Of a DNA stretch of 64,000 bases, positions 36,803 through 49,106 are shown in pieces (the first letter of the stretch is position 1; the number at the start of each line of letters is the position of its first letter). The notes below the pieces were generated by a model. The model did no database searches, was not told where the DNA came from, and saw nothing but the letters and a program-made list of their open reading frames with translations. Made by a program: the position numbers and the translations under genes. The DNA is from Akkermansia muciniphila. Lineage in GTDB: Bacteria; Verrucomicrobiota; Verrucomicrobiia; Verrucomicrobiales; DEV007. The stretch lies in the NCBI GenBank assembly GCA_945883495.1, contig CAMCXS010000001.1:62001-126000 (forward strand). The letters run 5' to 3'.

Positions 36803-36987
36803 GGGTTTGGTTGTGGAGATGAAGTGGTCGGACGGGTCGGACCAATCTTCATGCCGTCAGTGCTTGCTTTGGGTATTCAGCTTCTTTACGTGGTCTACAC
36901 CTCATCATCATTTCAGTACTCATTCACACACGTCAAGCCGGATTTCTTTTTTCGTGAATCTCTCGCGCAACCACGCCACCCTTCTTG

Positions 36988-37857
36988 ATGATACGCTACT
37001 CTTCCCCGGCCTCGGGACGCCTTCTTCTTCTGTTGATCGCGGTCGCGCTCGTATCGATCGTTTGGCTTGAGCCCTCGCTGACCCTGCGGGCGGCGTCGGC
37101 CCCGGGATCGGTGAGTTCGCCCCCGGCCAGGCCCGTGCATTGGAGCTATGAGGGCGAAGACGGACCTGCTCATTGGGGCGGCTTAAGTCCCGCCTATTCC
37201 CGTTGCGCTGAGGGCAAGATGCAGTCGCCCATTGACCTGATCCCGAGCCAGGAAAGCAACGCGATTCCCCTGATCTTCGATTACAAGCGGAGCTCATTGC
37301 GGATCGCTCACCACGAGCATGTGGTCGATCTCATCGACAACGGTCACACGATCCAAGTCACGGTGGATCGGGGCAGCACGTTGACGACGCGGCGCGCTGT
37401 GTATCACTTGGCGCAGTTTCACTTTCATTCTCCGAGTGAGCATACGGTCGATGGCAAGGCGTTTCCGTTGGAGGCTCATTTCGTGCATCAAAGCGAGAGC
37501 GGAAACTTCGCCGTGGTTGGGGTGCTCTTTGAGGAGGGCGCGCCGAATCCCAATTTGGAGTCCATCATCGCACATTTTCCGGCGGCCAAGGGGGAAACCC
37601 GGCATGAGCCCTCCGTGGAATTGGATCTGGGCATTCATCTTCCCGTGAGCCCTTTGGTTTACAGCTACCGCGGTTCCTTCACCACGCCTCCTTGCACGGA
37701 GAATGTGGAATGGTTTGTCCTCAAAGCCGCTGCGTCCGCCAGCCGGGAACAGCTTGCGGCCTTTGCGACGCGTTTGCAGGGGAACAATCGTCCGGTGCAA
37801 TCGCCGCAGGGCCGGAAGGCGGAGTTTACCCGCATCCGGGAGCGAGTTGCGGAGTGA
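36988..37857 (+). CDS. Exported alpha-type carbonic anhydrase
   Basis: A 289-residue protein with a signal anchor or signal peptide at 11-35. The alpha-CA fold is unmistakable: HWSYEGEDGPAHWGGL, CAEGKMQSPIDL, the zinc ligands His145 and His147 (QFHFHSPSEH) and His164 (EAHFVHQ), and YRGSFTTPPCTENVEWFVL. It interconverts CO2 and bicarbonate in the periplasm. A TTG directly precedes the ATG, which I take as start. Confidence 0.94.
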   Translation: MIRYSSPASGRLLLLLIAVALVSIVWLEPSLTLRAASAPGSVSSPPARPVHWSYEGEDGPAHWGGLSPAYSRCAEGKMQSPIDLIPSQESNAIPLIFDYKRSSLRIAHHEHVVDLIDNGHTIQVTVDRGSTLTTRRAVYHLAQFHFHSPSEHTVDGKAFPLEAHFVHQSESGNFAVVGVLFEEGAPNPNLESIIAHFPAAKGETRHEPSVELDLGIHLPVSPLVYSYRGSFTTPPCTENVEWFVLKAAASASREQLAAFATRLQGNNRPVQSPQGRKAEFTRIRERVAE

Positions 37858-37967: not shown

Positions 37968-38723
37968 ATGAGCGAATCGCTTTCAGGCAAGACAGCTTTC
38001 ATCACCGGCGGTGCACGCGGCATCGGACGTGCCACCGCCCTCAAGCTGGCTCGGGCCGGGTGCGATGTCGCGATCGTCTACTTTAACAGCCACCAGGAAG
38101 CCGAAGAGGTTTGCCAAGCGATCCGCGACCTGGGTCGCCGGGCCTTGGCCGTGCAGGCGGATGTCAGCGATCCCGCCAGCCTCGCGGAAGCGTTTGGCGA
38201 GTTCCGCAAGCAGTTCGACAAGGTCGATATCGTGGTCAGCAATGCGGCGATCGGCGTGTTGCGCCCCGCGTTGGAGATGACGTTGAAGCATTGGCGCCGT
38301 TGCATGGAGACGAACGCCCTGGCGCTCAATACGCTGGCCCAACAGGCCGTGCCGATCATGCCGGAAGGCGGGGTCTTCATCGGGCTTTCCAGCATGGGCT
38401 CGGTGCGGGCGATCCCTCATTACTCGTTCATCGGCGCTTCAAAAGCAGCTTTAGAGTCGCTGGCCCGGGCCTTGGCCCAAGAGCTCGGCTCCCGCGGCAT
38501 CCGCGTGAACATCGTCAGCGCGGGCGTGGTCGATACCGACGCCCTCAAGCACTTCCCGAACCGCGAAAATCTCCTCGCGGAATCCGCGCAACGCACGCCG
38601 ATTCCCACCCCGCTCACCCCGGAGCACGTGGCGGACGCGATTTACCTTCTTTGCCTGCCGGAGGCCGCTCTGATCACCGGACACACCCTCGTCGTCGACG
38701 GCGGGTATTGCATTTCAGGATAG
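37968..38723 (+). CDS. fabL: FabL-type enoyl-[ACP] reductase (SDR)
   Basis: A 251-residue short-chain dehydrogenase. Cofactor motif ITGGARGIGRA, NAAIGVLRP, and the catalytic YxxxxxxK in YSFIGASKAALE. The block DTDALKHFPNRENLL is close to Bacillus FabL, which separates it from FabG-type ketoreductases and indicates NADPH-dependent reduction of trans-2-enoyl-ACP. It is the first gene of the eight-gene fatty-acid-type operon and ends one base before the fabG start. An alternative ketoreductase role cannot be fully excluded. Confidence 0.82.
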   Translation: MSESLSGKTAFITGGARGIGRATALKLARAGCDVAIVYFNSHQEAEEVCQAIRDLGRRALAVQADVSDPASLAEAFGEFRKQFDKVDIVVSNAAIGVLRPALEMTLKHWRRCMETNALALNTLAQQAVPIMPEGGVFIGLSSMGSVRAIPHYSFIGASKAALESLARALAQELGSRGIRVNIVSAGVVDTDALKHFPNRENLLAESAQRTPIPTPLTPEHVADAIYLLCLPEAALITGHTLVVDGGYCISG

Positions 38724-38724
38724 G

Positions 38725-39489
38725 ATGACAGCCCCCACCCTCACAGATTCAGGCTTGGCCGGCGGAGTGGCCATCGTCACCGGCGGCAGCCGGGGCATTG
38801 GACGCGCCATCGTGGAAACCTTGGCCGCGGCCGGCATGGACGTCGCGTTTACGTATCGGGAGAACGCCGCCGCCGCGCAGGAAGTGATCGCGGCGGGACC
38901 AGAAGGCAAAATTACGGCCGCCCAGGTGGACGTGAAGGACTCGGCAGCCTGCCAAGCGTTCGTGGAATCGGTCGCCGATCGCTCCGGGAAGATCGACGTC
39001 CTGGTGAACAACGCCGGGGTGATCCGGGACAATCTCATGGTGGCGTTGAGCGATGACGACATCCGCGAGGTGTTGCAGACCAACGTGGAAGGGACGTTCA
39101 ACATGTGCCGCGCGGTGGTGCCCTTCATGATGTCCAAACGCCGGGGCAGCATCATCAACCTCAGCTCCGTGTCCGGGGAAAAAGGGGGACGCGGCCAGAC
39201 GAATTACGCCGCCAGCAAGGGAGCGATCAACGGCTTCACTCGGTCCCTGGCCTGCGAAGTGGCGGCCCGCAACGTGCGCGTCAACGCGGTGGCCCCGGGC
39301 GTCATCGAAACCGAGATGTCCCAAACCGTCCGCGATCTGGCGGGCGATCAAATCACTTCGCGCATTCTCCTCAAGCGCTACGGCAAGCCGGAGCACATCG
39401 CCCATGCCGTTTGGTTTCTCGCCTCCCGCTACGCGGAGTACATCACCGGTCAGATCCTCTCCGTCGACGGTGGATTCAAAATGGAGTGA
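38725..39489 (+). CDS. fabG: 3-oxoacyl-[ACP] reductase
   Basis: A 254-residue SDR with TGGSRGIGRAIVE, NNAGVIRDNLMVALSDDDI, the SSVSGEKGG serine, YAASKGA (Tyr/Lys) and PGVIETEMSQTV, all typical of FabG. It reduces 3-oxoacyl-ACP with NADPH. Because a separate enoyl reductase precedes it and an ACP, dehydratase and ketosynthases follow, it supplies the first reduction in a complete elongation cycle encoded by this operon. Confidence 0.92.
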   Translation: MTAPTLTDSGLAGGVAIVTGGSRGIGRAIVETLAAAGMDVAFTYRENAAAAQEVIAAGPEGKITAAQVDVKDSAACQAFVESVADRSGKIDVLVNNAGVIRDNLMVALSDDDIREVLQTNVEGTFNMCRAVVPFMMSKRRGSIINLSSVSGEKGGRGQTNYAASKGAINGFTRSLACEVAARNVRVNAVAPGVIETEMSQTVRDLAGDQITSRILLKRYGKPEHIAHAVWFLASRYAEYITGQILSVDGGFKME

Positions 39490-39507: not shown

Positions 39508-39933
39508 ATGAGCAACGTGAACATCACCAAGGAAGAAATCGACGCGATCCTGCCCAAGGTCGCCGAAATCATTGCCGACGCGCTCGGGTGCGATCTGGAG
39601 GAAGTGCAGCCAACCGCCTCGCTGATCACGGATTTGGGCGGCGAATCGATCGACTTCCTCGACATCGTTTTCCGCTTGGAACGCGAGTTCAAAGTGAAGA
39701 TCCCTCGCGGCAAAATCGTGGAGGACGCTCGTGGCCCGCTGGCCGAAGCCGAATTTGAAAAAGGTGGCGTCGTCACCCCAGAAGGCGAAACCCGCCTCCG
39801 CGAGTTCCTCAGTGAAGTCCCGGCGGATCGCCTCAAGTCGCCCATCAAATCGGCCGAGATTCCCAAGCTGTTCACGGTGGAAACCTTTGCCAAGATGATC
39901 ATCCGCGAACAACGCGCGGCCAGCGGCGCCTGA
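39508..39933 (+). CDS. Acyl carrier protein with large insertion
   Basis: A 141-residue acyl carrier protein. The phosphopantetheine site is Ser47 in DLGGESIDFLDIVFRLE, with Glu-Ser-Ile where common ACPs have Asp-Ser-Leu. Helix II continues normally, then about 50 additional residues (roughly 68-118) separate it from the final helix (FTVETFAKMI). Canonical ACPs have about 78 residues, so this is a specialised carrier. Its stop shares one base with the start of the dehydratase gene. The fused holo-ACP synthase three genes downstream is its likely activator. Confidence 0.88.
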   Translation: MSNVNITKEEIDAILPKVAEIIADALGCDLEEVQPTASLITDLGGESIDFLDIVFRLEREFKVKIPRGKIVEDARGPLAEAEFEKGGVVTPEGETRLREFLSEVPADRLKSPIKSAEIPKLFTVETFAKMIIREQRAASGA

Positions 39934-40769
39934 TGGATCATCGTTATCGCGCCTTTTCGTTCGTCGATCGCATCTCCGTTCTGGAGCCCGGCGTCCGCGT
40001 CTCCGGCTCCTGGCGGATTCCGTCCAGCTTGCCCGGGTTTCCGCTCTCCTTGGTCGCGGAAGCCGCCGGCCAGCTCGCAGCTTGGTCCGCCATGGCGGCC
40101 ATCGATTTCTCGCATCGTCCGGTCGCGGGCATCGCCGGACGGGTGGAACTCCTCGGTGAAGCGCTTCCTGGCCAGACCTTGGAGCTTTCCGCCGAGTTGG
40201 AAACCGCCGATCAAGAAGCGGTGGCGTATGGCGGAGTCGCCTCCATCGATGGCACGCCGATCCTCCGATTGCACCACTGCGTCGGCCCGATGATGCCGGC
40301 CGAGGAATTCGATGATCCGGCGGCGATGCGGGAACGCTTGGCGTTGCTTTGCGGTCCCGGCGCCGAACCTGGAGCGTTCCGTGCCGTCCCTGAGTTCACG
40401 TTGGACGACCTCGCGGTGGAAGCGGGCGCCGTGGCCCGGGCGAAGTTGCAGGTTCCGGCCGAGGCGGCATTTTTCGGCGATCATTTCCCACGCCGGCCCG
40501 TCTTTCCCGGAACGCTTTTGATGAACATGAACCTGAAACTGGTCGATGCCCTCGCCCGCTCCGTGGCCGTGGAAGGCGGACCTTGGGTGGCCCGCGCCGT
40601 CGTCGATATGAAACTGCGTTCGTTCATCGCTCCCGGCACCGCGCTCGATTTGGAAGCGAAAGTCTTGGAACATTCCGGCGACCAATTGCTGGTTTCCGTA
40701 CAAACAAAGGCGAGCGGCCGGCTCCAAGGCGCGGCGCGTGTGGAACTAGCCCCAGGAACAGCGAAATGA
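39933..40769 (+). CDS. Double-hotdog FabZ-like 3-hydroxyacyl-ACP dehydratase
   Basis: A 278-residue protein with two hotdog domains. The C-terminal half has the FabZ histidine motif FFGDHFPRRPVFPGTLL (His184) but lacks the following EAMAQ-type helix. The N-terminal half has SLPGFPLSLVAEAAGQLAA, the Glu/Gln helix (Glu43, Gln47), but lacks the histidine. FabZ active sites combine His from one subunit with Glu from the other, so this fusion could keep one complete site per chain. It dehydrates the hydroxyacyl intermediate, or may have lost activity. ATGA overlap with the next gene. Confidence 0.8.
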   Translation: MDHRYRAFSFVDRISVLEPGVRVSGSWRIPSSLPGFPLSLVAEAAGQLAAWSAMAAIDFSHRPVAGIAGRVELLGEALPGQTLELSAELETADQEAVAYGGVASIDGTPILRLHHCVGPMMPAEEFDDPAAMRERLALLCGPGAEPGAFRAVPEFTLDDLAVEAGAVARAKLQVPAEAAFFGDHFPRRPVFPGTLLMNMNLKLVDALARSVAVEGGPWVARAVVDMKLRSFIAPGTALDLEAKVLEHSGDQLLVSVQTKASGRLQGAARVELAPGTAK

Positions 40770-42052
40770 GCACGAATGGAAGGACGAGAATCGCGATCAC
40801 CGGGATTGGCCTGGTGACGCCGGTGGGGAACGACCGCGAATCGACTTGGCAGGCGCTGCAAGAAGGCCGGCCCGGGCCGGGACCGATCACGACGTTCGAC
40901 GCCAGCGGCTTCACCACCCGGATCGGTTCCGAGGTGAAGGGCTTTGACTTCGACAGCGTCGCTCCCCGCAAACTCCTCAAGCAAGCGTCGCGCTGTCACC
41001 GCTTCGCTTTGGCGGCCGCGGAGGAAGCATTCTCGGAAGCGGGGATCCGCCCCGAATCCGCTACGGGCGAGCGTTGGGGCGTTTCCGTGGGCGCCGGAAT
41101 GATGAGTATTTCGCTCAAGGAACTCGATGTGGTGCATCGGCATTGCGCCCCAGACGGCTCCTTCGATGCCACCAAGATGGCGTCGCCGAACTATCCCGCC
41201 GATCCCGTTTACTTCTGCCGGACCCAGTGCAACGCCGGGTTGGGCCTGCTTGCCAATCACTTCGGGATTCGCGGGTACAGCACCGCCGTCCACACCGCGT
41301 GTGCCTCGGGCGGACAAGCGATCGGCACCGCGCTCAAGGTGATGCGCCGTGGGCTCGTTGACAAAATGCTCGTGGGCGGGTTCGACTCGATGCTCAATCC
41401 GATCGGGCTCTCCAGTTTCTGCCTGCTCGGCGCGCTTTCAACGGACAACGACGAGCCGTGGCGCGCGAGCCGTCCGTTTGACGTGAGCCGCAACGGGTTT
41501 GTCCTCGGCGAGGGCGCCGGCTTTTTGGTGTTGGAACGTTGGGACGACGCCGTGAAACGCGGGGCGAACATTTACGCGGAACTGGCCGGGGACGGAAACT
41601 CCCTGAGTTGTTACCGGATCACCGATTCCCCGCCGGATGGCGACGGGCCAATCCAGGCGATCCGGCAATCGCTAGCCAGCGCCGGGTTGCAGCCCGAGGA
41701 CATCGATTACGTGAACGCCCACGGCACCTCGACCCAGATGAACGACCAGAGCGAGTGCGCCGCGTTGAAAGTCGTCATGGGCGATCATCTACCCAACGTT
41801 TCGGTCAGTTCCACCAAAGGTTGCATGGGCCACCTCATCGCCGCCGCCGGAGCCGTGGAAGCCGCGGTTTGTGCCTTGGCCATCCGGGACGGCATCGCTC
41901 CCGTGAGCGCGAATTTCCAAACGGCGGACCCGGGCAGCGAAGCGGTGAACATCGTGGCCGGGAAATCGCGTCCCACCCGCATCCGCGCCGCCATTTCCAA
42001 TTCGTTGGGCTTCGGCGGTTCCAACAGTTGCCTCACCTTCCGCCAACCTTGA
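40766..42052 (+). CDS. Beta-ketoacyl-ACP synthase II-type (first of two)
   Basis: A 428-residue thiolase-fold condensing enzyme. The Cys-His-His triad is complete: Cys179 (HTACASGGQ), His319 (NAHGTSTQMND) and His356 (KGCMGHLIAAAG). The FabF-type FDVSRNGFVLGEGAG motif is present. The start overlaps the dehydratase stop (ATGA). It elongates acyl-ACP with malonyl-ACP. With the second synthase it may handle different chain lengths, or the two may form a heterodimer. Confidence 0.9.
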   Translation: MSTNGRTRIAITGIGLVTPVGNDRESTWQALQEGRPGPGPITTFDASGFTTRIGSEVKGFDFDSVAPRKLLKQASRCHRFALAAAEEAFSEAGIRPESATGERWGVSVGAGMMSISLKELDVVHRHCAPDGSFDATKMASPNYPADPVYFCRTQCNAGLGLLANHFGIRGYSTAVHTACASGGQAIGTALKVMRRGLVDKMLVGGFDSMLNPIGLSSFCLLGALSTDNDEPWRASRPFDVSRNGFVLGEGAGFLVLERWDDAVKRGANIYAELAGDGNSLSCYRITDSPPDGDGPIQAIRQSLASAGLQPEDIDYVNAHGTSTQMNDQSECAALKVVMGDHLPNVSVSSTKGCMGHLIAAAGAVEAAVCALAIRDGIAPVSANFQTADPGSEAVNIVAGKSRPTRIRAAISNSLGFGGSNSCLTFRQP

Positions 42053-42065
42053 TTCGAACGACTCG

Positions 42066-43352
42066 ATGAGCACGTCTCCACGCATTGCCATCACCGGTTC
42101 GGGCGCGGTTTGCGGCGCCGGACTCAATCCCGCGGCGATTTTCGACGCCATTTTGGAAGGACGTTCCGCCGTGGCTCCCATCGCCTACTGGGACGCCTCC
42201 GGTTGGCCCATCCAAGTGGCCGCCCAACTCACCGGCGTGAAGGACCAGGTCCTCGTCGATGACCGCAAGCTCCACAAATCGATCTCCCGCACCGACCTGT
42301 TCGGGATTTACGCCGGGGATGAAGCGATCAAGTCCTCCGGCCTGCGCGCCTTCCGGGACGGCTTGCCCGAGGGCGAAATTCCGGAATTCAACGACCGTTC
42401 CGGCCTCGTCGTCGGCTCCGGTGGCGGTTCGTATCAGGTCAATTACGACTTCTTCCCGCTCCTCAGTTCGTCCGCGGGGGACATGGTGAAGTTCGGCCAA
42501 GAGCTCGCCTCCTCGGTGCACCCGATGTGGCTCTTGCGGATTCTCCCGAACAACGTGCTTTGCCACGTCGGCATCCGGAACAACTTCAAGGGTACCAACG
42601 CCTGCATCACCAACCAATGTGCAAGCGGCGCGCTCGCTTTGGCCGAGGCTGTGGCGTCCCTGCGGATCGGCGAAGCGGACCGGATCATCGCGGTAGGCCA
42701 CGATGCCCCGATTGAGCCCGAAGCCGTGCTCGGGTATCACCACCTTGGACTGCTCTCGGCGGATTCCGTGCGCTCGTTCGACGCGGAGCGAACCGGGACG
42801 ATCTTCGGAGAGGGAGCCGCCGCGGTCGCGCTGGAACCGCTCGAAGCCGCGAAGGCCCGTCAGGCCACGATCCTCGGAGAATTCCTCGGCTCCGGCGCGG
42901 TGAGCGAAGCCTCGGGCATCGTCCACTTGCAACCGGATGGGGATGGCCCCGCCCGTGCCATTGCCCTGGCTCTGGCCGACGCCGGGATTGCACCCAAAGA
43001 TGTCGGCATGATCGTGGCGCATGGAAACGGCACGCCGAACTCCGACGCCTCGGAAGCCGCCGCGATTTTGCGGGTGTTTGGCGACAACCCGCCTCCGGTG
43101 ACCGCCTTCAAGTGGGCCATCGGGCACACGCTCGCCGCCGCCGGCACGCTCGATGCCGTTTTGGCGCTGGAAGCTTTGCATCGCAACGTGGTGCCCGGCA
43201 TCCCCACGCTAAACCAAGTCGATCCCGAATTCGCCGCCCTGCCCGTTTCGCGCGAGCCACGGGAACCTCGGAGCGGCATCGCCCTGATCATTTGCCGGGG
43301 CTTTGGCGGCATGAACGTCGCGCTCGTGATCCGCCGGAGCACCGATTCATGA
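42066..43352 (+). CDS. Beta-ketoacyl-ACP synthase-type (second of two)
   Basis: Also 428 residues, but distinctly diverged from its neighbour. The triad Cys185 (ITNQCASGAL), His319 (VAHGNGTPNSD) and His354 (KWAIGHTLAAAG) is intact, so it is not a chain-length factor with a lost cysteine. FDAERTGTIFGEGAAAV replaces the FabF-typical segment. It follows the first synthase by 13 bp and overlaps the fused synthase/acyltransferase gene by ATGA. Confidence 0.88.
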   Translation: MSTSPRIAITGSGAVCGAGLNPAAIFDAILEGRSAVAPIAYWDASGWPIQVAAQLTGVKDQVLVDDRKLHKSISRTDLFGIYAGDEAIKSSGLRAFRDGLPEGEIPEFNDRSGLVVGSGGGSYQVNYDFFPLLSSSAGDMVKFGQELASSVHPMWLLRILPNNVLCHVGIRNNFKGTNACITNQCASGALALAEAVASLRIGEADRIIAVGHDAPIEPEAVLGYHHLGLLSADSVRSFDAERTGTIFGEGAAAVALEPLEAAKARQATILGEFLGSGAVSEASGIVHLQPDGDGPARAIALALADAGIAPKDVGMIVAHGNGTPNSDASEAAAILRVFGDNPPPVTAFKWAIGHTLAAAGTLDAVLALEALHRNVVPGIPTLNQVDPEFAALPVSREPREPRSGIALIICRGFGGMNVALVIRRSTDS

Positions 43353-44581
43353 CTCCCGAAGCGCCGCCAGGAACGCGGTGCGGGATCGATACAGTAGAGA
43401 TTCCGCGCATTGAAAAACTGCTCCGGGCCACGCCGCCGGAGGATCTCGACAAGCTGTTCAGCGCCCAGGAACTGGCGGACGCCGGGGCCGGGGCTGGCCG
43501 CATCGGAAGCCTGGCCGCCCGCTTCGCCGCCAAGGAAGCCTGCTGCAAACTCTTCCCCCGGGAAACCGCGTTGGGGCACATCGGGCCTGCCGATTTTTCG
43601 GTGCGCTCGGATGGTTACGGAGCTCCACACATCGAGGCCAGTCCGGCGGCTCGCGTCGCGATGAATCGGGCGTTTGTTTCGGACATCCGCCTCTCGCTGA
43701 CGCATACCGAGAATTCGGCATCGGCCGTAGCCGTGGCGGAGAAGCGGAAGTTCAACCCGCCCTGGTTCGGCAAGCTGGTTTACCACCTTCTGCCGTTGCG
43801 TCGCGGCGTCGTTCTGAAGAACCTGCGTCGCGTGTTCGGCGAGGTGCTGGAAGAACCGGAGATCGCGCAATTGGCCCAAGGCTACTACGGGCATTTTGTC
43901 CGCTGCCTGACGGAGTTCTTCCTCCGAAAACGCAGCATCCGGATCGAAGGCATGGAGACCGCCGCCGCCGCTTTGGCTCAGGGCAAGGGGATGCTTTTGC
44001 TCACCGGGCACTTCGGAAACTGGGAGGTCGCCACCGTCGATGGCATTCGCCAGTTCACCGAATTCAAAGGGCTCTTCCACTTCGTCCGCAAACCGCTGAA
44101 ACCGGAGTTCTTCAATCGCTTCGTCACGTGGCGGTTCCATCAGGCCGGGTTTGGAACCATCCCGAGCCGCGGCTCGCTCGACGCCATCTTGGAGCTGCTC
44201 GGCAAGGGCCAGATCGTGGTCTTCATCTACGACCAGCACGCCACCCAGCGCGATGGCGTCCCGGCGGATTTCCTTGGATCCCCGGCGAACACCTTTCGCA
44301 GCCTTCCCATCATCGCCATGTCCACGGGCGCCCCGGTCGTTCCCGCCACGAGTTGGCGCGAACCGGATGGAACCCACGTCTTGCGTTTTGAGGAACCGGT
44401 CTCCGTCGTCGAGCACGAGAAAACCGAGGAAGCCGTCCGCCTCACCGCCACTGCCTTCAACAAAGCGCTTGAGGAAGCGCTCCTCCGCCATCCAGAGCAA
44501 TGGATCTGGATGCACCAACGCTGGAAGGAAATCTTCCCGCCCAAGCGCAAGCGGAAAAAGAAACCCAAAACGTCCGCGTAA
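43349..44581 (+). CDS. Fusion of holo-ACP synthase (AcpS) and LpxL/HtrB-type acyltransferase
   Basis: A 410-residue single open frame with two recognisable enzymes. Residues 10-132 are an AcpS-type phosphopantetheinyl transferase: GIDTVEIPRIEKLL (metal Asp14), RFAAKEACCKLFPRE (metal Glu) and RLSLTHTENSASAVAV. Residues 140-410 are an LpxL/HtrB/lysophospholipid acyltransferase: LLLTGHFGNWEVA with the HxxxxE motif at His221, then GKGQIVVFIYDQHA, FLGSPANTFRSLPIIAM and HPEQWIWMHQRWK. The protein would activate the operon's ACP and also transfer its acyl chain. ATGA overlap with the preceding gene. No frameshift or stop lies in the linker. Confidence 0.9.
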   Translation: MTPEAPPGTRCGIDTVEIPRIEKLLRATPPEDLDKLFSAQELADAGAGAGRIGSLAARFAAKEACCKLFPRETALGHIGPADFSVRSDGYGAPHIEASPAARVAMNRAFVSDIRLSLTHTENSASAVAVAEKRKFNPPWFGKLVYHLLPLRRGVVLKNLRRVFGEVLEEPEIAQLAQGYYGHFVRCLTEFFLRKRSIRIEGMETAAAALAQGKGMLLLTGHFGNWEVATVDGIRQFTEFKGLFHFVRKPLKPEFFNRFVTWRFHQAGFGTIPSRGSLDAILELLGKGQIVVFIYDQHATQRDGVPADFLGSPANTFRSLPIIAMSTGAPVVPATSWREPDGTHVLRFEEPVSVVEHEKTEEAVRLTATAFNKALEEALLRHPEQWIWMHQRWKEIFPPKRKRKKKPKTSA

Positions 44582-44589
44582 CCCCGCTC

Positions 44590-46086
44590 ATGTCCGCGCG
44601 CACCCCGCTGTTCCGCCGTTTACGCCGTCTCCTCCGCACCGGCCTTTCTTCAAATCCCGGGTGGCAAGAGCACGTTTCCAGACGGCGGTTTCTCCAAGCA
44701 GCCGCCATGGGCATCGGATCCGCCGCGGTGCTCCGTCCTGGATGGGCGGCTCCGGCTGGTCCAGTGGCCATCGTCGGCGGTGGAGTGGCAGGTCTCACGG
44801 CGGCCTACCGGTTGCCATCACGGGACGTGCCTGTCGAACTGTTCGAAGCCGCCCCTCGGCTCGGCGGCAGGATGTTCACGAAACGGGACTTCAACTCGGA
44901 CAATATGTTCGTCGAGCTTGGCGGGGAATTGATCGATACCCAGCACACGGCCATCATGGATTTGGCCAAGGAACTCGGACTGAAACTGCAAAACCTCCTC
45001 GAAGGCGAAACCGGGCACGACTTCCTCTGGTTCGAAGGCCGGGCGCGTTCCGACGAAGAATTGCTCGCCGGGCTCCGGCCAGTGATCGCCCGCGTCGCTG
45101 AGGACGCCGCCAAATTGTACGACAACGACGACGCCTTCACTCCGTTCGCCCGGCAGCTGGATCAGATTTCCCTCTCCGGTTATCTCGCGGAAATCCCCGG
45201 CGTGGAGCGTTGGATCATCGATTTCCTGCTCGCGGCCTACGAACCCGAATACGGCCTCGACGCCGCGCAGCTTTCCTGCCTGAACCTCGTCGACTTCATC
45301 GACCACGATTTGTCGGATGGCTTCAGCGTTTTTGGCGAGAGCGATGAAGCCTGGCGCATCCATGGCGGCAACGGACAACTCCCAGAAGCCTTGGCCGCGC
45401 GGCTGCAAGGACGCGTGCCCATGCACACCGGGAAACGCCTCAACCGGATCGCGCTCCACGAGGGCAAGGTTCAATTGACGTTCCACGGCGAGGACGCGCC
45501 TCGGGAGTTTGCCAAAGTCATCCTCACCCTGCCGTTCACCCAGTTGCGCAAAGTGGACGGGATTTTCGATCTGCCGCTCTCCGAAGAAAAGGCCAAAGCC
45601 ATCCGCGAACTCGGCTACGGCCAAAACGTCAAGGTCATGCGCGGCTTCACCAGCCGCATTTGGAGAGAACAAGGCGGCAACGGCTCCGCGTTCGCCAAGC
45701 TCGCGACCTTTCAGAATATCTGGGAGACCAGCCGGGGCCAGAAGGGCGACAGCGGAATTCTCACCAATCTCCTTGGCGGCCGCCGCGCCATCGACTTCCG
45801 GCTGCAAGCCGACGAACGCGATCTCAAGGACATCGATACCGTTTTCCCCGGCAGCGCGGAAGCCTACGACGGCCACAACGCCGTTATGAACTGGCCCAAA
45901 CTGCCGACGCACCAAGGAAGCTACAGCTGTCCGCTCCCCGGCCAATACACCTGGATTCAAGCCGCCGCCGCCGCCCCGGAATGCGGAGGACGGCTCCTCT
46001 TCGCCGGGGAGCATACCAGCGCGGATTTCTGCGGCTTCATGAACGGCGCCGTCGAGTCAGGGAATCGGGTCTCCACTGAGGTCTAA
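44590..46086 (+). CDS. Tat-exported flavin amine oxidase-like protein
   Basis: A 498-residue protein with twin-arginine signal SRRRFLQAAAMG (about 30-41). The FAD domain begins VAIVGGGVAGLTAAYRL, followed by RLGGRMFTKRDF, and the C-terminal RLLFAGEHTSADFCGFMNGAVESG completes the monoamine-oxidase signature. It is the last gene of the fatty-acid-type operon, 8 bp after the fusion gene. It presumably acts in the periplasm on the amine or double bonds of the operon's product, but the substrate is unknown. Confidence 0.85.
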   Translation: MSARTPLFRRLRRLLRTGLSSNPGWQEHVSRRRFLQAAAMGIGSAAVLRPGWAAPAGPVAIVGGGVAGLTAAYRLPSRDVPVELFEAAPRLGGRMFTKRDFNSDNMFVELGGELIDTQHTAIMDLAKELGLKLQNLLEGETGHDFLWFEGRARSDEELLAGLRPVIARVAEDAAKLYDNDDAFTPFARQLDQISLSGYLAEIPGVERWIIDFLLAAYEPEYGLDAAQLSCLNLVDFIDHDLSDGFSVFGESDEAWRIHGGNGQLPEALAARLQGRVPMHTGKRLNRIALHEGKVQLTFHGEDAPREFAKVILTLPFTQLRKVDGIFDLPLSEEKAKAIRELGYGQNVKVMRGFTSRIWREQGGNGSAFAKLATFQNIWETSRGQKGDSGILTNLLGGRRAIDFRLQADERDLKDIDTVFPGSAEAYDGHNAVMNWPKLPTHQGSYSCPLPGQYTWIQAAAAAPECGGRLLFAGEHTSADFCGFMNGAVESGNRVSTEV

Positions 46087-46187: not shown

Positions 46188-49106
46188 ATGCACCTCTCCC
46201 GGTCTCACCTCCCCGCCGCCAGCGCCGTTCTGCTGGCGCTTGCCGCATTCTCGACTGCGGCGCAACGCAACTTCGGAATCCCCAAGCGCCCCGATTTCAA
46301 GGCTTACCAGGGCACCGTTTTCCCCAAGGATGCTCCCATTCTGGCGGGCGCCTGGTCCGTGCAACCCGCGTTCCCGGGCCTGAGCTTCCAGAATCCCATG
46401 GGCTTGACCGCCGTGCCCGGCACGAACGACCTCCTCGTCTGGGAACGCGAAGGCCGCCTCTGGCGCTTCGCCAACGATCCCGCCACCACCGAAAAACGCC
46501 TCGTGATCGATCTTTCCGAAGAATGCCAGGGCTGGCACGATAGCGGGCTCCTCGGCGTCGCACCGCATCCGGCGTTCGCGGAGAATGGCTTCCTCTTCGT
46601 CTATTACACCGCCGTGCCGCCCGGCCAAGTGGGCGGCAGCGCCGAGCGACAACCGGCCACCGAAATGCCAAACCGCGATCGCTTAGTCCGCTACACCTGC
46701 GATCCCGGCGGCTCCGCCGATCCCGCCAGCGCCATGGTCTTCATCGACCAAATCGCCGAAACCGTCTGGCACGAAGGAGGAGGACTCTTCTTCGGTCCCA
46801 AAGACGGCTTCCTTTACCTCTCGGTTGGCGACGATGCCCGTGCCGGGAAGAACCAAAAACTCGATGGCGGATTTTTCAGCGGCGTGCTCCGGATCGATGT
46901 CGATTGCCGCGGTGGCAAGATCAGCCACCCGCCAGTGCGCAAGCCGTTGCCGGAAGGGAGCGTGGCCGAGCACTACTTCATCCCCAACGAAAACCCCTTC
47001 GTCGGCCGGCCGGATGCGTTGGAGGAATTCTTCGCCCTCGGCTTGCGCAATCCGCACCGCATGACCGCGGATCCGGTGACGGGAAGGATGTTCATCGGAG
47101 ATGTGGGTGAAGGCGCGCACGAGGAACTGAACGTGATTGAGCCAACGGATCCGGGAGGCTTGAACTTCCAATGGAATCTGCAAGAAGGCGCTCCCACGAA
47201 GTCGATCAAAGTTCCGATCGGCGTCAGCAAGGGACCGCTCCTCAGCTATCGCCACCTGGAGGGCCGCGCCATCATCGCGGGTTACGTTTACCGGGGTAAG
47301 GAGTTCGCCCGCGACTTGGGCGGCAAATTCATCTTCGGGGACAACGTCACCGGCACGGTCTGGTATCTCGACGAATCGACAACTCCGGCCAGCAAACACA
47401 TCCTCTGCACGGTTCCTGACGGCCCAGGTCCCAACGCGGGGGCGAACTATTGCGGATTGTCATCGTTCGGCGTCGATGCCCAGGGTGAAATCTACCTCTG
47501 TCAGATGTCGAGCACGGCGGGGGCCATTCTGAAGCTCTCCCGTCAAGGGCCACCGCCGGTCGCGCTGCCGAAGAAGCTTTCGGAAACCAAGCTCTTCGCC
47601 AGCCTCGGCAAACTCACGCCTTCCGCGGCTTTGATCCCCTACGAAGTAAACAGCCCGCTCTGGTCCGACGGCGCCTCCAAGCAACGCTGGATGGCGATCC
47701 CTTCCACGGCGCGCATCGGATTTCAGGCCAGTGGCGAGTGGGCGTTCCCGGAAGGCAGCGTTTTCGTGAAGCACTTTGAACTGCCCAAAACCGGTGCCGA
47801 CGGGAAGCCTCTGGCCAGCACCCGCCTGGAAACCCGCGTCCTCGTCCGGGACGCCAACGGCTATGTCTACGGCGCGAGCTATCGTTGGCGGGCCGACCAC
47901 AGCGATGCCGATCTCGTACAAACCGGGCAAAGCGTTGATGTCGTGGTGGCCACCGGCATGAAGGGCAAGCCGGACAAAATGCAGAACTGGTTCTTTCCCG
48001 GCCGCCAGGATTGCCTCACCTGCCACACACGGGCGAGCGGCGGCGTGCTCGGAGTCAATACCCGGCAGTTGAATCGCCCCTACCGCTATCCGTCCGGCGT
48101 GACGGACAACCAGCTCCGCACGCTGGCCGCCATCCAGTTGTTCGAGGGCGCTCCCGAGGAAGCAACGTTGGCGGACCTGGGCCGCCTGGCGCCAGCCGAT
48201 GACCTTGATGAGCCGGTCGAAGTCCGCGCCCGCAGCTACCTCGATTCGAACTGTTCGCATTGCCATCGCCCCGGTGGCGTCCATGCCTTTTGGGATGCGC
48301 GTTACGAAACTGCGCTGCACGAAACCGGGATCGTCAACGGGCTGGTAAACAACACGCTGGGCCAAAACGGGGCCAAGGTCGTCGCGCCCGGCGATTGGAC
48401 CCGCTCCATCCTCTTCAAACGGATCAGCGTGGCTGGGCAACCGCATTCCATGCCGCCGCTCGCGAAGCAGCGCGTCGACAAAACCGGGATCGGCCTCATC
48501 GCGGAATGGATCGCCAGCATGGACGATGAAGAGGACGAGCCGCTCCCGGGCGGATGGCAGCTCGCCGAAATCGGCTCCCAAGGCGGCCCCGCTCAAGCCG
48601 GCTGGCGCAAGGGAACCTTCTACTTAAGCGCGCAGAATCACGACTTATGGGAAAACGCGGACAGCGCGATCATGGTTCATGCCTCGCCCATGGAATCCGG
48701 CCAAATCACCGCGCGCGTCCTCAGCCTGACGCCCACCGATGCCTGGACCAAGGCCGGCGTCATTCTCCGCTCTGAGACGACGGCGGACGCCGCTTCCGCC
48801 ATCATGGTGGTCACTCCTGGCCAAGGCAGCGCGTTCCAGTATCGCGAGACCGCCGCCGCATTTACTCAGCATTCCACCGGGCCTTCGGTGACCGCGCCGC
48901 ATTGGGTGCGCCTCGCCTGGAAAGATGGCGCCGTCATCGCCAGCATGTCCACGAACGGCCAAACCTGGAACGAAACCGGCCGCGCCCTGATCGCCTTCCC
49001 CGGCCCAGTCTTGCCCGGCCTCTGCCTCTCCGGCCACCAATCCCAAGCCGTGGCCTCCGCCGGGTTCGATCAGGTGAAAGTTGAGCCCTATCCAGGGAAT
49101 CCGTAA
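46188..49106 (+). CDS. Secreted sugar dehydrogenase-like/di-haem cytochrome fusion
   Basis: A 972-residue exported protein (signal residues 1-24). Residues about 45-445 form a soluble glucose/sorbosone-dehydrogenase-type propeller (FQNPMGLTAVPGTNDLLVWEREG, GLLGVAPHPAF, FALGLRNPHRMT, FIGDVGEGAHEE), a family that may use PQQ. Residues about 455-780 resemble the SO2930 type cytochrome with haem sites CLTCH (about 609) and CSHCH (about 688) and a late Met-containing SMPPL. The C-terminal 180 residues are a DUF1349/concanavalin-like domain. Electrons could pass from sugar oxidation directly to haem. Oxidase partner not seen. Confidence 0.85.
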   Translation: MHLSRSHLPAASAVLLALAAFSTAAQRNFGIPKRPDFKAYQGTVFPKDAPILAGAWSVQPAFPGLSFQNPMGLTAVPGTNDLLVWEREGRLWRFANDPATTEKRLVIDLSEECQGWHDSGLLGVAPHPAFAENGFLFVYYTAVPPGQVGGSAERQPATEMPNRDRLVRYTCDPGGSADPASAMVFIDQIAETVWHEGGGLFFGPKDGFLYLSVGDDARAGKNQKLDGGFFSGVLRIDVDCRGGKISHPPVRKPLPEGSVAEHYFIPNENPFVGRPDALEEFFALGLRNPHRMTADPVTGRMFIGDVGEGAHEELNVIEPTDPGGLNFQWNLQEGAPTKSIKVPIGVSKGPLLSYRHLEGRAIIAGYVYRGKEFARDLGGKFIFGDNVTGTVWYLDESTTPASKHILCTVPDGPGPNAGANYCGLSSFGVDAQGEIYLCQMSSTAGAILKLSRQGPPPVALPKKLSETKLFASLGKLTPSAALIPYEVNSPLWSDGASKQRWMAIPSTARIGFQASGEWAFPEGSVFVKHFELPKTGADGKPLASTRLETRVLVRDANGYVYGASYRWRADHSDADLVQTGQSVDVVVATGMKGKPDKMQNWFFPGRQDCLTCHTRASGGVLGVNTRQLNRPYRYPSGVTDNQLRTLAAIQLFEGAPEEATLADLGRLAPADDLDEPVEVRARSYLDSNCSHCHRPGGVHAFWDARYETALHETGIVNGLVNNTLGQNGAKVVAPGDWTRSILFKRISVAGQPHSMPPLAKQRVDKTGIGLIAEWIASMDDEEDEPLPGGWQLAEIGSQGGPAQAGWRKGTFYLSAQNHDLWENADSAIMVHASPMESGQITARVLSLTPTDAWTKAGVILRSETTADAASAIMVVTPGQGSAFQYRETAAAFTQHSTGPSVTAPHWVRLAWKDGAVIASMSTNGQTWNETGRALIAFPGPVLPGLCLSGHQSQAVASAGFDQVKVEPYPGNP

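Follow-up and report, generated by a model that had tools for sequence, protein, structure and literature searches.

The locus and its genes

The DNA stretch of 64,000 nucleotides analysed here, referred to as the window, carries on its forward strand a compact operon of genes for fatty acid synthesis that ends with a gene encoding a two-domain protein. The operon opens with a FabL-type enoyl-ACP reductase (37968-38723, +), whose score of 319 bits lies just below the cut-off of 328 of the NCBIfam FabL model, and continues with a FabG-type 3-oxoacyl-ACP reductase (38725-39489, +) recognized by profile matches. It is followed by an acyl carrier protein (ACP) of 141 amino acids (39508-39933, +), with the serine motif GESIDFLD and a C-terminal extension past the ACP domain, by a dehydratase of 278 amino acids (39933-40769, +) with a FabA/FabZ match in its C-terminal half, and by two ketosynthases (KS), one FabF-like (40766-42052, +) and one divergent (42066-43352, +), both possessing the Cys-His-His triad. 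The extension of the ACP comprises about 70 residues after the carrier domain, and the counterpart from Legionella is similarly long (a 137-amino-acid frame). The last gene (43349-44581, +) consists of a single frame of 410 codons devoid of any internal stop. Since its ATG overlaps the stop of the preceding ketosynthase gene as ATGA, it is probably translated within the operon.

The order FabL, FabG, ACP, dehydratase, KS, KS, fusion is collinear in four phyla, with the fusion always in the last position. The pairing of the fusion with the adjacent ACP proposed in an earlier sequence-only reading of this DNA thus holds beyond the window, as the ACP, the two ketosynthases and the fusion are kept together in all four. 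The fusion is immediately followed, in eight betaproteobacterial loci, by a gene for an LpxO-family hydroxylase, an assignment scored on the copy of locus L058 (444.7 bits versus an NCBIfam LpxO cut-off of 500). Upstream of FabL, many loci of Verrucomicrobiota and betaproteobacteria contain genes for a condensation-domain protein, a lipase-like protein and a PEMT/ICMT-like protein. This trio, whose lipase-like member has no Pfam match, occurs in L043 (1398-4372), L045, L046, L058, L074 and others, distributed over two phyla; the three genes are not adjacent to the window's own operon.

Other genes surround the operon of the window. An alpha-type (eukaryotic-type) carbonic anhydrase (36985-37857, +) lies immediately upstream. 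A flavin amine oxidoreductase (44590-46086, +) with an apparent twin-arginine signal, SRRRFLQAAAMGIG, starts 8 bases past the stop of the fusion; it adjoins the fusion within the same genus only and was rejected as a core member of the operon. Further downstream, a secreted-looking protein of 972 amino acids (46188-49106, +) combines a glucose/sorbosone dehydrogenase domain with long extra regions.

Domain architecture and family membership

The 410-amino-acid fusion protein associates an AcpS-type phosphopantetheinyl transferase (PPTase) with an LpxL/PatA-type acyltransferase, as indicated by its frame, Pfam matches, homologues, AlphaFold2 model and structure matches. The AcpS domain covers residues 1-132 (43349-43744, +; about 7-132 as strict domain limits) and is delineated by Pfam, conservation, phylogeny and structure matches. 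The LABLAT acyltransferase domain covers residues 139-397 (43763-44539, +), is recognized by Pfam, phylogeny and structure matches, and lacks the N-terminal membrane helix of LpxL and LpxM. Its catalytic motif HFGNWE, from H221 to E226 (44009-44026, +), is identified from the sequence and from its conservation in homologues. Residues 11-96 match ACPS (PF01648) with 35.4 bits against a Pfam gathering score of 25, and residues 141-393 match Lip_A_acyltrans (PF03279) with 116.8 bits against 22.3. The residues expected of both families are present, namely the metal-binding D14 and E63 and the catalytic K67 and H119 in the AcpS half, and the HxxxxE motif (H221/E226) in the acyltransferase half. One frame joining an AcpS domain, with its metal Asp and Glu, to an HxxxxE acyltransferase had been claimed from the sequence, with exact coordinates, and is borne out. 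The combination was also correctly presented as unusual. Our literature searches for the ACPS and acyltransferase domain pair found no paper describing such a fusion.

With respect to narrower families, the AcpS half scores 39.5 against the curated cut-off of 59.8 of the holo-ACP synthase equivalog TIGR00516, and 48.9 against the 45.35 of the broader NCBIfam PPTase domain model TIGR00556, which it passes. The acyltransferase half remains far below the curated cut-offs of LpxL/HtrB proper (TIGR02207; 72.8 versus 297.8) and of LpxXL (NF005120; 89.1 versus 273, a model for which the rhizobial-type LpxXL reaches 498), and the NCBIfam PIM acyltransferase is among its better matches. Similarly, the operon ACP scores 46.4 against the curated 83 of AcpXL (NF005079), compared to 188 for the rhizobial-type AcpXL. 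The fusion is accordingly a member of PF01648 and PF03279, both of them broad families, and falls, by curated scores, outside TIGR00516, TIGR02207 and NF005120. The names LpxXL for the fusion and AcpXL for its ACP were rejected because these cut-offs are missed; by analogy, the system may work like AcpXL/LpxXL without being a member of it.

Conservation and predicted structure

Homologues with both domains in one frame, 62 distinct sequences in total, occur in Verrucomicrobiota, betaproteobacteria, Methylomirabilota and Binatota, and at every locus where an AcpS domain stands beside the acyltransferase the two share the same frame. Neither a frameshift nor a split into separate genes, the outcome that the sequence-only reading had named as its own refutation, was found, and the fusion is a real protein architecture. 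Across these 62 sequences, the AcpS half shows no variation at D14, R20, R58, K62, E63, K67 and H119, nor does the acyltransferase motif at H221, and E226 is 98% conserved. Within the genus, dN/dS ranges from 0.066 to 0.114 in the AcpS half and from 0.061 to 0.103 in the acyltransferase half; since these ranges are alike, both halves are similarly constrained, under equally strong purifying selection.

The AlphaFold2 model of the single chain, built from a 61-sequence alignment, has a pLDDT of 89.5 and a pTM of 0.85. In VIA comparisons of this model, residues 6-132 match solved AcpS structures with Z up to 17.4, and residues 146-397 match both PatA (Z 26.2) and LpxM (Z 26.0). The match to LpxM begins at its residue 39, past the N-terminal membrane helix, so that the AcpS domain occupies the place of this helix. 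The profile match likewise begins at position 42, with the membrane helix of LpxL/HtrB absent, and the acyltransferase half of the fusion belongs to a distinct sub-group without that helix. The stand-alone acyltransferases of Legionella also start near the point where the LpxM helix ends.

One part of the AcpS half departs from its family. Where the CoA loop of AcpS has GTG, the fused family has PRE, so that the specificity or the activity of this half may differ from that of other AcpS. At residues 68-74 of the window's protein, the fused AcpS domains share a family-specific motif, LFPRE(T)ALG, in place of the GTG CoA-loop motif.

Evolutionary history

In a maximum-likelihood tree of the acyltransferase domain, the fused members and the unfused members of the Legionella type form one group (support 100/99), separate from the rhizobial LpxXL and from the other LABLATs of the window's own genome. 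Two unfused members from Verrucomicrobiota, at loci L087 and L089, are nested among the fused ones. The L089 protein keeps an AcpS-like N-terminal stretch, GSDAAEIARMERLMRDA, joined to its acyltransferase, and the AcpS domain has for that reason been regarded as secondarily lost there. At L089:2150-2280, a remnant of the AcpS N-terminus stays fused to the acyltransferase, most of the domain having apparently been removed by an internal deletion. The AcpS half was lost at least twice. As L087, L089 and the Legionella relatives do without it, this half is not strictly required in some hosts. At the base, relative to Legionella, the node that bears on which of the two states is older has a support of 85/64, and either the fused or the unfused form may be ancestral.

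The AcpS domains of the fusions group into a single clade (100/100) that excludes the stand-alone AcpS, that of the host itself (G000 C4) among them, and their ancestry is separate from that of their hosts' stand-alone enzymes. Because at least one further PF01648 enzyme is found in 11 of the 12 fused genomes searched, the AcpS domain of the fusion is, as a rule, an additional and dedicated copy. For most betaproteobacterial genomes with the fusion, the remaining PF01648 matches fell short of an AcpS assignment and probably represent Sfp-type enzymes.

Distribution

Within the family of the window, full-length matches occur in 28 genomes, three from genus g1 at 87-100% and 25 from genus g2 at 48-59%, and fragments in two more; the fusion is limited to 2 of the 18 genera. 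A scan of bacterial genomes revealed further full-length fusions in Verrucomicrobiota, betaproteobacterial assemblies, Methylomirabilota and Binatota, nearly all carriers being metagenome assemblies. The fusion was counted in 6 of 399 genomes of the betaproteobacterial (Burkholderiales-type) order, in 6 of 95 in Methylomirabilota and in 1 of 198 in Binatota. A phylum-wide sample of 388 Verrucomicrobiota genomes (E ≤ 1e-40) gave the window's own genome as the only match, and the plasmid search retrieved generic LpxL-type matches only, with no fused copy. A fusion already catalogued as common was the other outcome that the sequence-only reading had named as its refutation, and the patchy distribution seen here speaks against it.

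In Methylomirabilota, open frames of up to 855 amino acids pointed to another kind of fusion, which was rejected after inspection of the sequences. These frames correspond to stand-alone LABLATs with a membrane helix, none of them within the operon described here, and owe their length to high-GC read-through.

Proposed function and alternative readings

The operon is proposed to encode a dedicated type II fatty acid synthase, with the fusion as its terminal enzyme, endowed with two functions. The AcpS half would attach 4'-phosphopantetheine from CoA onto the operon's own 141-amino-acid ACP, on which the two ketosynthases, FabG, the FabZ-like dehydratase and FabL would build up a long acyl chain and reduce it completely. 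The LpxL/PatA-type half would then take the finished chain from acyl-ACP and esterify a membrane lipid, most likely lipid A, a step modelled on AcpXL/LpxXL in rhizobia. The same polypeptide, as the sequence-only reading suggested, would activate the ACP and later unload it. We infer both activities, the ACP as their common substrate, the chain length and the lipid A acceptor; taken together, a dedicated synthase whose ACP is primed by the fusion, and whose long saturated chain is transferred by it, most likely to lipid A, is the probable reading.

Lipid A is favoured as the acceptor on account of the acyltransferase family, the LpxO neighbour, the Legionella operon and the rhizobial gene order. 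The operon shows the succession ACP, dehydratase, KS, KS, acyltransferase with a dedicated ACP, as in the systems that attach very long chain fatty acids to lipid A, and the hosts have the genes of lipid A makers: LpxC and LpxK are each present in 13 of 14 host genomes, and the window's own genome has both. The low AcpXL/LpxXL scores and a PatA match as good as that of LpxM leave doubts on this point. The PatA match lends some credit to the idea that the operon makes a long acyl chain for another lipid, e.g., a glycolipid, an aminolipid or some other specialised lipid, with an acceptor that is PatA-like rather than LpxL-like. PatA acylates a mannolipid, the PIM acyltransferase model points the same way, the hosts already hold other LABLAT genes, and the condensation-domain, lipase-like and PEMT/ICMT-like methyltransferase genes upstream in many loci give a hint of another tailored lipid. 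However, the LpxO-family hydroxylase immediately downstream in eight loci, the homologous operon of Legionella, whose lipid A has very long chains, and a gene order similar to that of the acpXL-lpxXL cluster all argue for lipid A, and such a different acceptor appears unlikely.

It may also be asked whether the AcpS half still transfers phosphopantetheine, or has become an ACP-docking or trimerisation module keeping the acyltransferase near acyl-ACP. The PRE sequence in place of the AcpS-typical GTG of the CoA-binding loop, the other PF01648 enzyme in nearly all hosts searched, and the relatives of the Legionella, L087 and L089 types that work without this half would agree with such a loss. 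The seven residues invariant across 62 sequences, a selective constraint equal to that of the acyltransferase half and the score above the NCBIfam PPTase cut-off speak against it, and render a purely structural role rather improbable.

Aryl polyene pathways also use an ACP, two ketosynthases, a dehydratase, a PPTase and an LpxL-type acyltransferase. Despite this similar set of parts, a type II polyketide pathway of this kind is very improbable here: the FabL-type enoyl reductase of the conserved operon predicts a saturated chain, the Cys-His-His triad in both ketosynthases implies that neither is of the chain-length-factor type, and the conserved operon showed no starter-acid ligase or ammonia lyase. 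Finally, the union of two separate genes by a frameshift or an assembly error has nothing counted in its favour and is practically eliminated by the in-frame homologues from different assemblies.

Beyond the preferred reading of a dedicated lipid A synthase, a bolder picture can be put forward tentatively, with more doubt than confidence. Enzymes of the AcpS family form homotrimers whose active sites lie where the subunits meet. A trimerising AcpS half and a single dedicated ACP would yield a three-headed membrane acyltransferase, in which one protein both primes and discharges the ACP and thereby insulates a very-long-chain lipid A pathway from housekeeping synthesis, and the whole module would have been passed on together among four or more phyla.

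Significance

If the preferred reading is true, one polypeptide governs both ends of the working cycle of the acyl carrier protein, a form of control for which the literature searched offers no example among type II synthases. It would also point to very-long-chain lipid A in Verrucomicrobiota, Methylomirabilota, Binatota and betaproteobacteria; no report of such a lipid A was found in the literature on Verrucomicrobiota. A dedicated, fused PPTase would moreover offer a simple test of how cells separate parallel fatty acid synthases, and the question is made testable by natural experiments such as Legionella, whose enzyme is unfused and whose one PPTase is of the Sfp type, and L089, with its AcpS remnant.

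Comparison with known systems

The rhizobial cluster acpXL-fabZXL-fabF2XL-fabF1XL-adh2XL-lpxXL resembles the operon in its dedicated ACP and in the order ACP, dehydratase, KS, KS, reductase, LpxL-family acyltransferase, a gene order associated with the very long chain fatty acid of lipid A (PMC11901934). The corresponding order, ending with LpxXL, was seen again in loci L134-L139. In contrast to the operon of the window, the rhizobial cluster has no AcpS domain and an alcohol-dehydrogenase-type enzyme instead of FabL and FabG, and its LpxXL is only about 26% identical.

The closest homologues occur in Legionella, and also in Tatlockia, where an operon of the same order, FabL-ACP-dehydratase-KS-KS-acyltransferase, shares about 42% identity with the window at the acyltransferase, about 53% at KS1 and about 60% at FabL, but has a stand-alone acyltransferase and no FabG within the operon. 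AcpS is absent from Legionella, whose one PPTase is of the Sfp type (PMC5126622), in keeping with an acyltransferase that is not fused. Its lipid A carries 27-oxo-octacosanoic acid, a C28 oxo-fatty acid, among chains of C27-C28 (PMC7867332). The Legionella operon may make these long chains; no experiment linking the two was found in the literature searched. The operon is common to Legionella species (L094-L116), and its genes are candidates for the 27-oxo-octacosanoic chain.

With respect to the separate halves, the PPT domain of fungal type I fatty acid synthase is likewise an AcpS-type domain within a fatty-acid enzyme (Z about 16-17) but resides in a megasynthase with its own ACP and without a lipid acyltransferase partner. 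LpxM from Acinetobacter (5kn7) and PatA from Mycobacterium (5f2t) share the fold and the HxxxxE motif of the C-terminal half, LpxM differing by the N-terminal membrane helix that the AcpS domain replaces. Stand-alone AcpS, finally, possess the same fold, metal Asp and Glu, Lys and His, whereas they form a separate clade, retain GTG where the fusion has PRE, and are not fused.
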